The notes beneath the pieces were generated by a model. It did not search any database, was not told where the DNA came from, and saw only the letters and a program-made list of their open reading frames with translations. Source: Actinacidiphila epipremni (GTDB lineage: Bacteria; Actinomycetota; Actinomycetes; Streptomycetales; Streptomycetaceae). From it: a stretch of DNA of 64,000 nt. The position numbers and the translations under genes were made by a program. Location of the stretch: positions 1 through 64,000 of the forward strand of contig NZ_JAATEJ010000011.1 in assembly GCF_012034175.1 (NCBI RefSeq), in the 5' to 3' direction. Of this stretch, positions 15,746 to 50,040 are shown piece by piece. How positions within the stretch are numbered: position 1 is the stretch's first letter; every line of letters begins with the position of its first letter.

Positions 15746-16669
15746 ATGGCCGAGTACGCGGACCAGGGCGCGGCCACGGTGCCGGGCGGGCCCATCGTGC
15801 ACGGCTTCCCGCATCTGGCGACGGTGCGTACCGCGCTGACCGCGCTCTACCGGCGGCTGTCGGCGGACGGGGTGCTGCGTTTCCCGGCGAGCGTGCTGCC
15901 GGAGCTGGTGGATTTCCCGGCGGACGAGGATCCGTATCTGGGGGCGCAGCGGGTGGCGCGGGCGCTGGTGCAGCACTTCCGGCTGCCGGACGCCCGGATG
16001 GTGGTGGGCTTCCGCGACATGGTGCACGCCGGTGACGTCGAACTGGCGGCGGGCCCGGAGTATTTCATCGAGCTGCACTCGCGGTTCAAGACCGACCGGC
16101 GGGACGTGGGGGCGGCGCTCGCGCACGAGGTGATGCACGTCTATCTGCACCGGCTGGGCCTGGAGCTGCCGGGGACGCGCGACAACGAGATCCTCACCGA
16201 CACCGCGACGACGTATCTGGGCGCGGGCTGGCTGCTGCTGGACGCCTACCGGGAGGAGGCGGCGATCCGCGGTGAGCGGCTGCGGATGTCCGCGTACAAG
16301 CTGGGCTATCTCACGCCGGAGGAGTTCGGCTATGTGCTGGCCAAGCGGGCGGAGGTCTTCGGGGACGACGTCGAGCCGTGGTTCCGCTCGGCGCAGGCGG
16401 CCGACGCCTACCGTGCGGGCCGGGAGCGGGCTCGCGAGGACTGGCGGCGGGCCCCGCTGGCGGGCGCGGGCTGGGGCGCCCGGCGCCGCTACGCCCGGGA
16501 CCGCCGGGCGCTGGCGGCCGGGCCGGACTACTCCTTCGACGCCGGGGCGGCGGGCCCGCGGGTCTCCTTCCCGTGCCCGGCGTGCTTCCAGCGGCTGCGG
16601 CTGCCGTGCCGGGGGCGGATGCGGGCGCGCTGCGGGCTGTGCCGCACGGAGCTGGACGTCGACACATGA
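15746..16669 (+). CDS. HEXXH metalloprotease-like protein with C-terminal zinc ribbon
   Basis: 307 residues, not a family I can name. The middle holds AHEVMHVYLH (H127, E128, H131), and NEILTDTATTYLG about 17 residues later could supply the third metal ligand, as in gluzincin-like proteases. The last 35 residues contain two CxxC pairs in a zinc-ribbon pattern (FPCPACFQRL and CGLCRTEL). There is no signal peptide or membrane segment, so it should be cytoplasmic. GGGGAGG at 15734-15740 sits 5 bases before the ATG. The stop codon falls in the first unit of a 14-base tandem repeat. It is divergent from pepN with 100 bases between them. Protease activity is inferred only from the motif. Confidence 0.75.
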   Translation: MAEYADQGAATVPGGPIVHGFPHLATVRTALTALYRRLSADGVLRFPASVLPELVDFPADEDPYLGAQRVARALVQHFRLPDARMVVGFRDMVHAGDVELAAGPEYFIELHSRFKTDRRDVGAALAHEVMHVYLHRLGLELPGTRDNEILTDTATTYLGAGWLLLDAYREEAAIRGERLRMSAYKLGYLTPEEFGYVLAKRAEVFGDDVEPWFRSAQAADAYRAGRERAREDWRRAPLAGAGWGARRRYARDRRALAAGPDYSFDAGAAGPRVSFPCPACFQRLRLPCRGRMRARCGLCRTELDVDT

Positions 16670-16721
16670 CCGCCGGCACGTCATCGCCGGCGCGTGACCG
16701 CCGGCACATGACCGCCGGTGC
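16666..16721. repeat. Four tandem copies of a 14-base unit
   Basis: Units start at 16666, 16680, 16694 and 16708 and follow the pattern RTgAcCGCCGGcac. Units 1 and 3 differ at one base, unit 2 is the most diverged. The array overlaps the stop codon of the HEXXH gene and lies 50 bases before the DinB-type gene. Confidence 0.85.
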
Positions 16722-37718: not shown

Positions 37719-38963
37719 TCAGCGCGGCAGCTCCGCCCGGCGGACCGCCGGGGTGAGGGCGGTCAGGACCGCGCCGGAGGTGGCGAGGGCGGCGCTGGCC
37801 AGGAAGACCACGGGCAGGCCGAAGGCGGCGCCGGCGGCGGCGAAGGCGGGGTAGGCCAGCGGGGCGAGGCCGAAGCTGCTCAGGCTCATCACGGAGGTGA
37901 CCCGGCCGAGGTAGGCGGGGTCGGTGGCCGTCTGGATCAGCGCGGTGGCGAGCCCGCCGCACACCCCGCACACGAGCCCGGCGACGAAGGCCGCCGCCGT
38001 GGCCGCGGGCAGCGCGGGCGTGACGCCGATGAAGCCCACGCCGACCGATCCGGCCACCAGCGTGGCCGCCTGGACCGCGCCGGCCCGCCGGATGCCGCCG
38101 CGTACCGCCAGCAGCAGCGCGCTGAGCGCGGCCCCGGCGCCGAACGCGCCGATGACCCAGCCGTATCCGCTCGCGCCCCAGCCGCGCCGCTGGGCGAGCA
38201 GCACCATGCCGACGTTGAGCGGCCCGACGAGCCCGAGCTCGCACAGCGCGCCGGACAGCACGAGCGGGCCGACGAGGCGGTGCCGGCGGATGTAGCCGAG
38301 CCCGTCGCGCAGTTGGTGGCCCGCGGTGGCCCGGTCCGGCGTTTTCGCGGGCAGGGCGTGCAGGCGGGTGGTGAGCAGCAGCGGCACGGACAGCGCGAAG
38401 AGCGCCCCGGCGGTCGCGAAGGCCGCGGCGGCGCCGCCGAGCCCCATCGCGAGCCCGCCCGCGGGGGGACCGGCGATCTGTCCGAACCGGGAGACCAGGG
38501 AGCGCAGGCCCTGGAGGCGTACGAGCTGGTCCGGTGCGGTGATCCGGGGCGGCAGCGCGCCGACCGCGGGCATGAACAGCGCGTCCACCGCGCCGAAGAC
38601 CAGGGCGAGCGCGATCAGCAGCCACAGCCCCGGCGAGGTCAGCGCGAGCGCGCCGGCCGCGGCGAGGATGAGCACGCAGCGCACGGCGTCGCCGCCGATG
38701 ACCACCAGGCGCGGCCCGAACCGGTCGGCGACCACTCCCCCGCCGAGCATGAGCACCGCCCGCGGCACCGCGCCCGCCGCCATGACCAGGCCGACCTGCG
38801 TGGGCGGCGCGGTGCGGGCGGCGGCGAAGCCGAGGGCGACGAAGTAGACGGAGTCGCCGAGCAGGGAGGCGGTGTAGGCGGTGAGCCAGCGCAGGACGTT
38901 GCCGTCGCGGTGGGCGGGTGTGCCGGGCCGGTCGGCGGCCTGGGATATCGCGGGCGCGGTCAT
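37719..38963 (-). CDS. MFS efflux transporter
   Basis: 414-residue major facilitator with about 12 hydrophobic segments; the loop GGGVVADRFGPRLVVIGGD is the A-type signature between helices 2 and 3. The fold resembles MFS-3-type (enterobactin exporter/macrolide efflux) proteins. The ATG at 38961-38963 overlaps the stop of the regulator gene (ATGA) and has no ribosome site of its own, so translation depends on the upstream gene. The cargo is unknown; drug or metabolite export is likely. Confidence 0.85.
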   Translation of the reverse strand: MTAPAISQAADRPGTPAHRDGNVLRWLTAYTASLLGDSVYFVALGFAAARTAPPTQVGLVMAAGAVPRAVLMLGGGVVADRFGPRLVVIGGDAVRCVLILAAAGALALTSPGLWLLIALALVFGAVDALFMPAVGALPPRITAPDQLVRLQGLRSLVSRFGQIAGPPAGGLAMGLGGAAAAFATAGALFALSVPLLLTTRLHALPAKTPDRATAGHQLRDGLGYIRRHRLVGPLVLSGALCELGLVGPLNVGMVLLAQRRGWGASGYGWVIGAFGAGAALSALLLAVRGGIRRAGAVQAATLVAGSVGVGFIGVTPALPAATAAAFVAGLVCGVCGGLATALIQTATDPAYLGRVTSVMSLSSFGLAPLAYPAFAAAGAAFGLPVVFLASAALATSGAVLTALTPAVRRAELPR

Positions 38964-39574
38964 GGCCGGAAGGGGAAGCCGTACATCTGGACCGCGACGT
39001 GCTCGCGCCCCTCGGTCTCGCCGGCGTCCTCCGCGGCGCGCCCGCGGTCGGTCCAGCGCTGCATGAGGGCGCCGATCTCCTCGGCCATCTGCTGGAGCTC
39101 GTCGGCGGTGAGCAGCGGCATGTACTCCGAGGAGAAGGAGGCGTTGGTCCACTCCCGCGCCCAGGCCGCGTGCTGGTCGAGGAACTGCTGGTAGCGCTCG
39201 GCGCGGGTGGCGAGCAGCTGCCGGGTCACCTGGGCGAGGACGGCGGCGCCCTCGGGGCGGTCGTCGAAGTCGGCGGTGCGGAAGGAGAAGCCGCGCTCGG
39301 CGGACACCTTCCACCAGCGCTCGCGGCCGTCGGTGCCGTGGTCGCGGTCCTCGGTGATGAAGCCGTGCGCGGCCATCTTGCGCAAGTGGTAGCTCACGAG
39401 CGAGACCGCCTCGTCGACCTGGTCGGCCAGGTGCGAGGCGGTCGCGGTGCGGGCGATGAACAGCGCGCGGTACAGGCGGATGCGCAAGGGGTGGGTGAAG
39501 ACCTTCAGCGCGTCGAGGTCGGTGATGCGCTGGTCCCGGTCGGGGGCGTCGGTGGTGCGGTCGTCGTCGGTCAC
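38960..39574 (-). CDS. ArsR-type winged-helix regulator
   Basis: 204 residues from GTG 39572-39574. The DNA-binding domain is at about 10-85: LKVFTHPLRIRLYRALF, ATASHLADQVDEAVSLVSYHLRKMAAHGFI. A C-terminal helical region of about 110 residues (YQQFLDQHAAWAREWTN, ADELQQMAEEIGALMQRW) may bind a ligand or form dimers. TAGCCT at 39582-39587, 7 bases before the GTG, suggests a leaderless transcript. The 14-base repeat array begins next to that -10 element and is the likely operator. Confidence 0.88.
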   Translation of the reverse strand: MTDDDRTTDAPDRDQRITDLDALKVFTHPLRIRLYRALFIARTATASHLADQVDEAVSLVSYHLRKMAAHGFITEDRDHGTDGRERWWKVSAERGFSFRTADFDDRPEGAAVLAQVTRQLLATRAERYQQFLDQHAAWAREWTNASFSSEYMPLLTADELQQMAEEIGALMQRWTDRGRAAEDAGETEGREHVAVQMYGFPFRP

Positions 39575-39581
39575 CTCACCG

Positions 39582-39587
39582 AGGCTA
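39582..39587 (-). promoter_or_regulatory. Candidate -10 of the ArsR-MFS operon
   Basis: TAGCCT on the minus strand, 7 bases before the GTG. The repeat array at 39589-39672 would cover the -35 region and everything upstream. Confidence 0.4.
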
Positions 39588-39588
39588 G

Positions 39589-39672
39589 ATACACAAGGAA
39601 AGTTGCGCAAGAGAATTTGCACAACTCTTCTTGCGCAACTTCCTTTGCGCAAATTCACGTGCGCAAGGTTTC
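39589..39672. repeat. 14-base-period array of TTGCGCAA sites (likely operator)
   Basis: Core sites start at 39603, 39617, 39631, 39645 and 39659, exactly 14 bases apart: TTGCGCAA, TTGCACAA, TTGCGCAA, TTGCGCAA, GTGCGCAA; a degenerate sixth (ATACACAA) is at 39589. Each core is self-palindromic. An overlapping inverted repeat of about 20 bases pairs 39595-39613 with 39625-39645. The tract is strikingly AT-rich against its surroundings and lies between divergent start codons at 39574 and 39717. Confidence 0.85.
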
Positions 39673-39716
39673 TTTCTCAGCTGATCGGTCCCCTCCGCAC
39701 CCGCAGGACCGGCAGG

Positions 39717-40328
39717 ATGGCCGCCATGTCCCTCGACGGCACCCGCGCGCACCTCAGCGGCACCGGTGACCTGCCGGCCCTGGTGGAGCGCGCCGCGCAG
39801 CACGCGACCCGGCTCGGCTTCCGCTACTCCTGCCGCCCCGAGCAGGGCCGGCTGCTGCACGCGCTCGCCGCGGGCGCCGAGCGGATCGGCGAGACCGGCA
39901 CCGGCTGCGGGGTGGGCCTGGCGTGGCTGGTGTCGGGGATGCGCGGCGGCGCGACCGCGGTCAGCGTCGAGCAGGACGCCGAGCGGGCCCGGGAGGCCGC
40001 CGGCCTCTTCGCCGGGTACGCCCCGCGGGTCACCGTGCGGCACGCGGACTGGCCGGCGATCGCCGAGCACGGCCCCTTCGACCTGCTCGTCCTCGACGGC
40101 GGCGGCCAGGCCAAGGACGGCGCCCCGGCCGCCGACCCGGCCGCGCTGCTGCGCCCCGGCGGGGTGCTCGTCATCGACGACTTCACCCCCGCGCGCGGCG
40201 CCCCGCCCGTCCACGCCGGCGCCCCGGACACCGCCCGGCTGCACTGGCTGGACCACCCGGCCCTGCGCACGGTGGAGATACCCCTGGCGCCGGACCTGGC
40301 GACCCTGGTCTGTACGAGGAAGGGCTAG
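39717..40328 (+). CDS. Class I SAM-dependent O-methyltransferase-like protein
   Basis: 203 residues with a Rossmann methyltransferase fold: IGETGTGCGVGLAWLVSGM (SAM motif I), TAVSVEQDAERAREAA (motif II acid), FDLLVLDGGGQAKDGA and LLRPGGVLVIDDFTP. It resembles caffeoyl-CoA O-methyltransferase-type enzymes; the substrate is unknown. The start is ATG 39717 (AGGACC 8 bases upstream) or ATG 39726. It is divergent from the ArsR-MFS pair and shares its control region. Confidence 0.8.
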   Translation: MAAMSLDGTRAHLSGTGDLPALVERAAQHATRLGFRYSCRPEQGRLLHALAAGAERIGETGTGCGVGLAWLVSGMRGGATAVSVEQDAERAREAAGLFAGYAPRVTVRHADWPAIAEHGPFDLLVLDGGGQAKDGAPAADPAALLRPGGVLVIDDFTPARGAPPVHAGAPDTARLHWLDHPALRTVEIPLAPDLATLVCTRKG

Positions 40329-49444: not shown

Positions 49445-49477
49445 TCCGGCGCCGCGTCTGCGCGGGACGCCAACCAC

Positions 49478-49607
49478 CAGGGGCGCGAGGAACTGCGCGC
49501 GCAACCCACCACCGGCCGGTGGTCCGGATCGGACCGAACAGCCCCTTTGGGTCGGTGACGACGTGCACGCCGGTTCCTGGCTGGTCGCGCAGTTCCCCGC
49601 GCCCCTG
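49478..49607. repeat. 130-bp inverted-repeat element, copy A
   Basis: Terminal inverted repeats 49478-49499 and 49586-49607 (22 bases, one mismatch), beginning caggggcgcg and ending cgcgcccctg. The interior has a perfect 16-base palindrome accaccggccggtggt. No coding capacity. Same length and about 95% identical to copy B. Confidence 0.85.
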
Positions 49608-49614
49608 GTTTGCT

Positions 49615-49695
49615 GGCCAGCGGCGCAGCCGCAAGCCCCGCCGGTCGCGCCCACGCGGCGGCAGCCGCACAACAAACACAGCCCCGCACCCCTGG
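49615..49695 (+). repeat. Repeat family C, copy 1
   Basis: 81 bases from ggccagcggcgcagccgc to the gcacccctgg end. Its first 55 bases are identical to 49986-50040. Confidence 0.8.
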
Positions 49696-49761
49696 GTGTC
49701 GCCCTGCGGCGCAAGCCGCAGCCTGCCGGAGTGAGCTCACTCGGCGCAGGACGCCAACCAC

Positions 49762-49891
49762 CAGGGGCGCGGGGAACTGCGCGCGCAACCACCCACCGGC
49801 CGGTGGCCCGGATCGAACCGAACAGCCCCTTTGGGTCAGTGACGACGTGCACGCCGGTTCCTGGCTGGTCGCGCAGTTCCCCGCGCCCCTG
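49762..49891. repeat. 130-bp inverted-repeat element, copy B
   Basis: Terminal inverted repeats 49762-49783 and 49870-49891 match perfectly over 22 bases. The interior differs from copy A by a handful of bases. It starts 284 bases after copy A. Confidence 0.85.
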
Positions 49892-49907
49892 AAAAGCAAC
49901 GCCCGAC

Positions 49908-49979
49908 GCAGCCGCAAACCCCCGCCGGTCGCGCCCACGCGGCGGCAGCCGCACAACAAACACAGCCCCGCGCCCCTGG
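49908..49979 (+). repeat. Repeat family C, copy 2
   Basis: 72 bases, nearly identical to the corresponding part of copy 1, including the acaacaaacacagccccgc segment. Confidence 0.8.
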
Positions 49980-49985
49980 TTTGCC

Positions 49986-50040
49986 GGCCAGCGGCGCAGC
50001 CGCAAGCCCCGCCGGTCGCGCCCACGCGGCGGCAGCCGCA
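49986..50040 (+). repeat. Repeat family C, copy 3 (truncated)
   Basis: 55 bases identical to the first 55 of copy 1; ends 5 bases before the stop codon of the DUF2567 gene. The whole 49358-50045 interval is gene-free. Confidence 0.85.

Follow-up and report, generated by a model that had tools for sequence, protein, structure and literature searches.

Half-sites of ArsR/SmtB repressors typically face each other across about 6 bp (TGAA-N6-TTCA). In the portions of the literature compared here, an operator of this family comprises one or two imperfect inverted repeats of the 12-2-12 type, and that of AzuR overlaps the predicted -35 element (PMC8790569). Rv2034 of Mycobacterium tuberculosis is presented, in the sections available, as an autorepressing ArsR-like dimer that binds a palindrome at its own promoter, a single one with two 8-bp arms separated by 4 bp (PMC3338718). 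Assemblies extending along DNA have been described for other regulators. BldC of Streptomyces, a 68-residue MerR-like protein, is depicted head to tail on 9-bp directional repeats (PMC5859096, in excerpt). At zitB of Streptomyces coelicolor, dimeric Zur forms oligomers that spread along the DNA by the exporter promoter, where it activates at high zinc from what the excerpted account gives as one Zur box plus an undefined upstream feature (PMC5472717).

The window (the whole 64,000-nucleotide stretch of DNA analysed here) carries a putative operator of another layout, located between a regulator gene, which overlaps an exporter gene, and a divergent methyltransferase gene. Its features are the following.

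37719..38963, minus strand: MFS exporter, 414 aa, with a 4-nt overlap with the regulator stop (ATGA)
38960..39574, minus strand: HTH_20/ArsR-type regulator, 204 aa, winged helix plus helical C-terminal part, no cysteine
39582..39587, minus strand: candidate -10 hexamer TAGCCT, separated from the -35 by 17 bp and from the GTG start at 39574 by 7 nt
39589..39596, strand (.): promoter-side terminal unit ATACACAA (minus strand TTGTGTAT), between -35 and -10
39603..39666, strand (.): five strong operator units with a 14-bp period, putative operator, the single such array in the genome; cores in order 39603 TTGCGCAA, 39617 TTGCACAA, 39631 TTGCGCAA, 39645 TTGCGCAA, 39659 GTGCGCAA
39605..39610, minus strand: candidate -35 hexamer TTGCGC of the regulator promoter, within the 39603 core
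39673..39680, strand (.): distal weak terminal unit TTTCTCAG (minus strand CTGAGAAA), in register
39713..39718, plus strand: CAGGAT, candidate -10 of the methyltransferase, conserved in the alignment, 7 nt before ATG
39726..40328, plus strand: methyltransferase (Methyltransf_24), divergent neighbour within the genus only

Scoring bore out the five positions, exactly 14 bp apart, that an earlier sequence-only reading had assigned to the cores. The five cores match TTGCGCAA at 8, 7, 8, 8 and 7 of 8 positions, respectively, and only three are exact. The sixth, degenerate core that it had placed at 39589 is present and in register, matching at 5/8 positions. An equally weak unit (5/8) at 39673 was absent from its list; most close relatives carry GTGAGAAA at that position. 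The inverted repeat said to overlap the array was also found, with 26-nt arms (39594-39619 and 39622-39647) that are 81% complementary around 39620. Neighbouring 14-bp units are turned by 120 degrees, and three periods, or 42 bp, make 4.00 turns at 10.5 bp per turn, so that every third site lies on the same face of the helix, as that reading had calculated.

The array is far beyond chance. The best five-unit sum in the window was 38/40, compared to a maximum of 27 in 40 first-order Markov windows, and the next best period (sum of 28) overlaps the same array. Searching the whole 8,245,155-base genome (8.2 Mb) with a two-core pattern at up to 2 mismatches returned the array, one stray match with 2 mismatches and no second array, while the reversed-pattern control gave 1+1 matches. 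Between the five units, the cores are 90% identical and the spacers 22% identical (26% expected).

Other repeats and one isolated site were observed in the window. Four copies of a 14-bp unit, CACGTGACCGCCGG, were reported by Tandem Repeats Finder at 16663-16718, with a sequence unlike that of the array at 39589-39680, and a 284-bp unit is repeated 1.9 times with 90% matches at 49460-50004. A perfect TTGCGCAA lies at 39378-39385 inside the regulator gene (codons 64-66), out of register with the array. It was rejected as an additional intragenic operator because, of 51 readable loci including the window, just 3 have TTG at codon 64; this leucine codon is CTG in 44 of the 51, and the nearest relatives do not have TTG there.

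The regulator is a member of the ArsR/SmtB superfamily with an ArsR-type winged helix-turn-helix. It matches Pfam HTH_20 with 37.4 bits (cut-off 27), and its best PDB sequence match is 3f6v, an ArsR-family protein (E 0.0087). We did not file it as an ArsR/SmtB metalloregulator because its NCBIfam HTH_metalloreg score (34.5 bits) falls below the cut-off of 55 and cysteine ligands are missing, there being no cysteine among its 204 residues. An AlphaFold monomer model (mean pLDDT 85.1) consists of a winged helix, then one long helix, then a C-terminal part that is helical. The nearest solved fold, 4g6q, matches along almost the entire protein (Z 12.3, rmsd 4.3, 169 residues, 15% identity) and the ArsR repressors CzrA, SmtB and CadC match the winged helix (Z about 9, 83-92 residues), at a level of fold match where, as the tool warns, helical parts may match by common arrangement. 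The MFS exporter was matched at 44 of 52 orthologous loci and unmatched at L014, at five Nonomuraea loci (L053, L054, L056, L064 and L065), at L069 (short flank) and at L075.

Conservation of the array was followed both from its pattern and from the regulator. Among 394 genomes sampled from the family, 11, with this one among them, carry a three-core pattern (at most 1 mismatch), and none its reversed control. In all 11, the array adjoins either the regulator itself or an orthologue with 50-90% identity, which upholds the proposed tie to an ArsR-type regulator. A genus search matched the regulator in 28 of 35 genomes (24 of them with at least 55% identity, counting the genome of the window), and a scan of genome contigs gave 53 loci, twelve of them identical with genus-search loci. 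Deduplication by an identical 100-nt coding stretch, which removes L062 and the duplicate copies L035-L046, left 52 loci of at least 42% identity, window included, which were not selected for the array. Four further loci found by the array pattern (L094, L095, L096 and L098) stand outside these 52 and are included in the 56-locus start-codon set and the 58-row tree. Two strong cores exactly 14 bp apart occur at 42 of the 52 loci and at 0 loci in shuffles; a search beside orthologues was the check advised by the sequence-only reading, and its expectation was confirmed by both approaches.

The register is equally well kept. Successive cores at the 52 loci are spaced by 14 bp in 54 of 58 cases, the others being 13 (two, both at L064), 8 (one) and 60 (one). 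Motif-free autocorrelation of 53 orthologue sequences peaks at lag 14 with z = 20, followed by lag 9 with z = 7.0. For 18 homologues that share 28-40% identity, z is 6.3 at lag 14 and 4.0 and 4.8 at lags 13 and 15; all these values are inflated by the relatedness of the sequences. Ten of the 52 loci do not have the strong 14-bp pair. The second core is degenerate at L018; L050, L053, L054, L056 and L070 have one strong core plus weaker in-register units; and the upstream regions of L051, L055 and L075 (the last a partial match) have diverged. The tenth, L064 of Nonomuraea antri, has three cores at 13-bp steps upstream of its regulator homologue, and the 14-bp step is therefore not absolute. 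By eye, no 14-bp ladder was found in the Amycolatopsis homologues L080-L087. Still, the array is very probably the operator of the adjacent HTH_20 (ArsR-type) regulator, judging from this co-occurrence.

A 14-bp layout is not a general rule for HTH_20 regulators. This genome has 44 HTH_20 matches, and among the 30 loci examined lag 14 was best at p < 0.01 only here and at L105, which rules out such a rule; p values of 0.01 or less were obtained at other lags for L102, L109 and L124. Upstream of the L105 regulator (G000:C1, near 399337) lies a palindrome with 14-bp phasing and another core, TATCTAAA-N6-TTGCTAAA-N6-TTTAGATA. Two distant regulators of 35-36% identity with MFS neighbours, L029 and L033, have four-unit 14-bp operators built on AGAA-N6-TTCT dyads.

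The sequence-only reading had the array start beside a candidate -10 of the regulator gene. This can be sharpened: the -35 is part of the core at 39603, and 17 bp separate it from the -10. TTGYRC is the start of the gene-nearest core as read from the regulator, and TTGYRC-N17-TANNNT was found at 45 of the 52 loci (all except L051, L055 and L071-L075). No other spacer length between 12 and 22 gave more than 2 loci, and shuffles averaged 0.05. It is because of this recurrence that we take the cores to contain the regulator -35. At all 49 promoter-bearing loci of the 56-locus set (four array-selected), the start codon lies 6-7 nt past the -10, the layout of a leaderless transcript, which makes this a candidate leaderless promoter. 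Any protein occupying the ladder would lie over the promoter, so that repression is the expected outcome, and the regulator promoter is probably autorepressed.

The number of units is far less constant than their spacing. Operators contain 3 to 7 in-register units, and in many relatives they consist of a weak unit, two strong cores and another weak unit. Two strong in-register cores were counted at 32 of 50 loci, one in the Nocardia loci L050 and L070, three at L069, four at L094 and five in the window. Aligned to ten relatives chosen out of 23 in the genus, the window has a single 42-bp insertion of exactly three units; one of the ten, L039, does not have the methyltransferase and aligns poorly on that side. 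Unit number is scattered on the 58-row tree: it takes 20 changes, shuffling gives 22.2 on average, and 18 of 200 shuffles have as few. It was rejected as a clade marker. Also rejected was a recent 14-bp or 42-bp tandem duplication, because the spacers show no direct-repeat likeness. Some window spacers are alike as inverted copies (gtgaat and the reverse complement of attctc agree at 5/6 positions), and inverted duplication is a possible origin of the extra units. From these comparisons, the operator appears to have been lengthened or shortened in whole 14-bp steps during evolution.

How the regulator would be placed on these units can be read in two ways, and dimers probably sit on GCAA-N6-TTGC across the 6-bp spacers rather than on the TTGCGCAA cores. 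This placement is favoured because of the half-site distance, the inward halves of the end units and the dyads of L029, L033 and L105. Half-sites of GCAA-N6-TTGC are 10 bp apart, about one turn, while those of TTGCGCAA are 4 bp apart (137 degrees), a poor fit for a typical winged-helix dimer. In the end units of 50 loci it is mainly the inward half that is kept (GAAA in 30, TTTC in 33), with mean matches of 2.58 and 2.76 of 4 compared to 1.66 and 1.58 for the outward halves; the next units outward average 1.08-1.80. Conservation is also seen to some degree in the outward halves: 24 of the 50 promoter-side ones read GTAT or CTAT, and part of the end-unit pattern on that side may stem from constraints on the promoter. 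Seven loci picked by eye were scored for core and spacer symmetry, and at three of them, L029, L033 and L105, no core is fully palindromic (at most 3/4) and the spacer dyads, at 4,3,4, 4,4,4 and 2,4, mostly are. We regard it as rather unlikely that the same regulator would instead place one dimer on each TTGCGCAA core, as independent, non-cooperative sites that merely raise local occupancy. The strong cores are indeed palindromic, perfectly or nearly so. Their symmetry (3-4/4) equals or exceeds that of the spacer dyads (3-4) at L066, at L070 and in the window, so that these three do not decide the placement; moreover, operators with an odd number of units (L070, L050) have their overall dyad on a core. 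However, independent sites would need no exact 14-bp spacing, and neither the end units nor the half-site distance fits them.

Other explanations concern the nature of the array and its target. A head-to-tail monomer polymer on direct repeats, without symmetric dimers, is suggested by the variable repeat number before a promoter in a streptomycete-like genome and by BldC, which in the excerpts available occupies 9-bp direct repeats of varying number (PMC5859096). It seems very improbable here: the units are dyad-symmetric and whole operators are palindromic in many relatives, unlike the directional BldC repeats, and the regulator, at 204 residues, is ArsR-like in fold and has a C-terminal part made of helices. 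Variable copy number and an exact unit period would also be produced by a neutral repeat arising by chance or slippage, with no regulatory role, but the chance that this is the case is practically negligible. The cores are alike while the spacers are no more so than expected, and the layout is kept across genera and families beside one gene; chance is ruled out by the Markov-window scores, the singularity of the array in the genome, the contrast between cores and spacers, and the 42 of 52 loci. Finally, the sequence-only reading had the array control both divergent transcripts, and control of the methyltransferase, for instance from an upstream site of activation or repression, would agree with the matches to this gene at 16 of 23 nonredundant genus relatives and with the partly conserved stretch from array to gene. 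Yet the gene was matched at none of 41 loci from outside the genus (L047-L087), the operator being retained at many of these, and it goes unmatched at 26 of the 42 loci that have the 14-bp pair. The likely methyltransferase -10 is downstream of the array and left uncovered by it, the nearest strong core ending 60 bp before the start. Because operator-bearing loci do without the gene and no core covers its -10, this part of the earlier proposal is not supported. We consider it unlikely, and the methyltransferase is probably outside the regulator/exporter system.

Taken together, it is likely, and we hold this with good confidence, that the array serves the neighbouring ArsR-type (HTH_20) autorepressor as its operator, in the form of a ladder of 14-bp units that controls regulator and exporter. 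From the layout we infer regulator binding, repression, dimer placement, cooperativity and ligand alike. The regulator would repress its own leaderless promoter, and hence the downstream MFS exporter, by occupying a ladder that includes the -35 in its last units and extends to the -10. Most likely, each dimer would lie across a 6-bp spacer, with its GCAA-N6-TTGC half-sites about one helical turn apart. Adjacent dimers would then share one TTGCGCAA core and be turned by 120 degrees, every third facing the same way, which would give six dimers along the seven in-register units here and about three in most relatives. An exporter substrate may release the regulator and open the promoter. The cooperative, filament-like binding suggested by the sequence-only reading is plausible, and it is favoured because of the exact register in most relatives and the length changes by whole units. 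More tentatively, and with somewhat more doubt than belief, one may think of a subfamily of exporter repressors with a modular ladder, in which dimers bind every 14 bp on GCAA-N6-TTGC in 120-degree steps and whole-unit changes, such as that from four to seven units in one lineage, tune repression strength and induction threshold.

The closest solved fold to the regulator is that of Kfla_6221 from Kribbella flavida (PDB 4g6q), titled functionally unknown, and we know of no operator for it. Like the ArsR/SmtB systems SmtB, ZiaR and AzuR, the present one combines a CzrA/SmtB-like winged-helix fold with an operator at or near the promoter. It differs in having, in place of the classical 12-2-12 repeats, a ladder of in-register units, as many as seven, that repeat every 14 bp and have another half-site sequence, and a regulator without cysteine and with a longer C-terminal part. 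BldC is similar in its variable number of phased repeats and in forming a multimer on DNA (here only proposed), but a BldC-type filament does not match the 14-bp dyad-symmetric units and the ArsR-type HTH_20 protein of this locus. Zur belongs to the Fur family. It resembles the present regulator in being a dimer (proposed here) that spreads near an exporter promoter, although zitB has no ladder of equal sites. Rv2034 is likewise an actinobacterial ArsR-like autorepressor, as the present regulator probably is, but with a single palindrome and not a ladder. A fixed-word search of one collection of open-licence papers, which is no proof of absence, brought up no description that we recognised of a 14-bp modular ArsR operator.

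If this interpretation is right, these loci form a natural operator series, in which one repressor type faces from one to five strong cores and the relation of site number to cooperativity and induction threshold becomes directly measurable. ArsR-type efflux regulators would gain a DNA-coating mode that, in the portions of the literature compared, is described for Zur (PMC5472717) and BldC (PMC5859096) and not for ArsR proteins. The search signature, a 14-bp register with the -35 inside a core, would help to assign operators to uncharacterised actinobacterial regulators. The array would work like the operator of an ArsR autorepressor, but on a repeated lattice of variable length.
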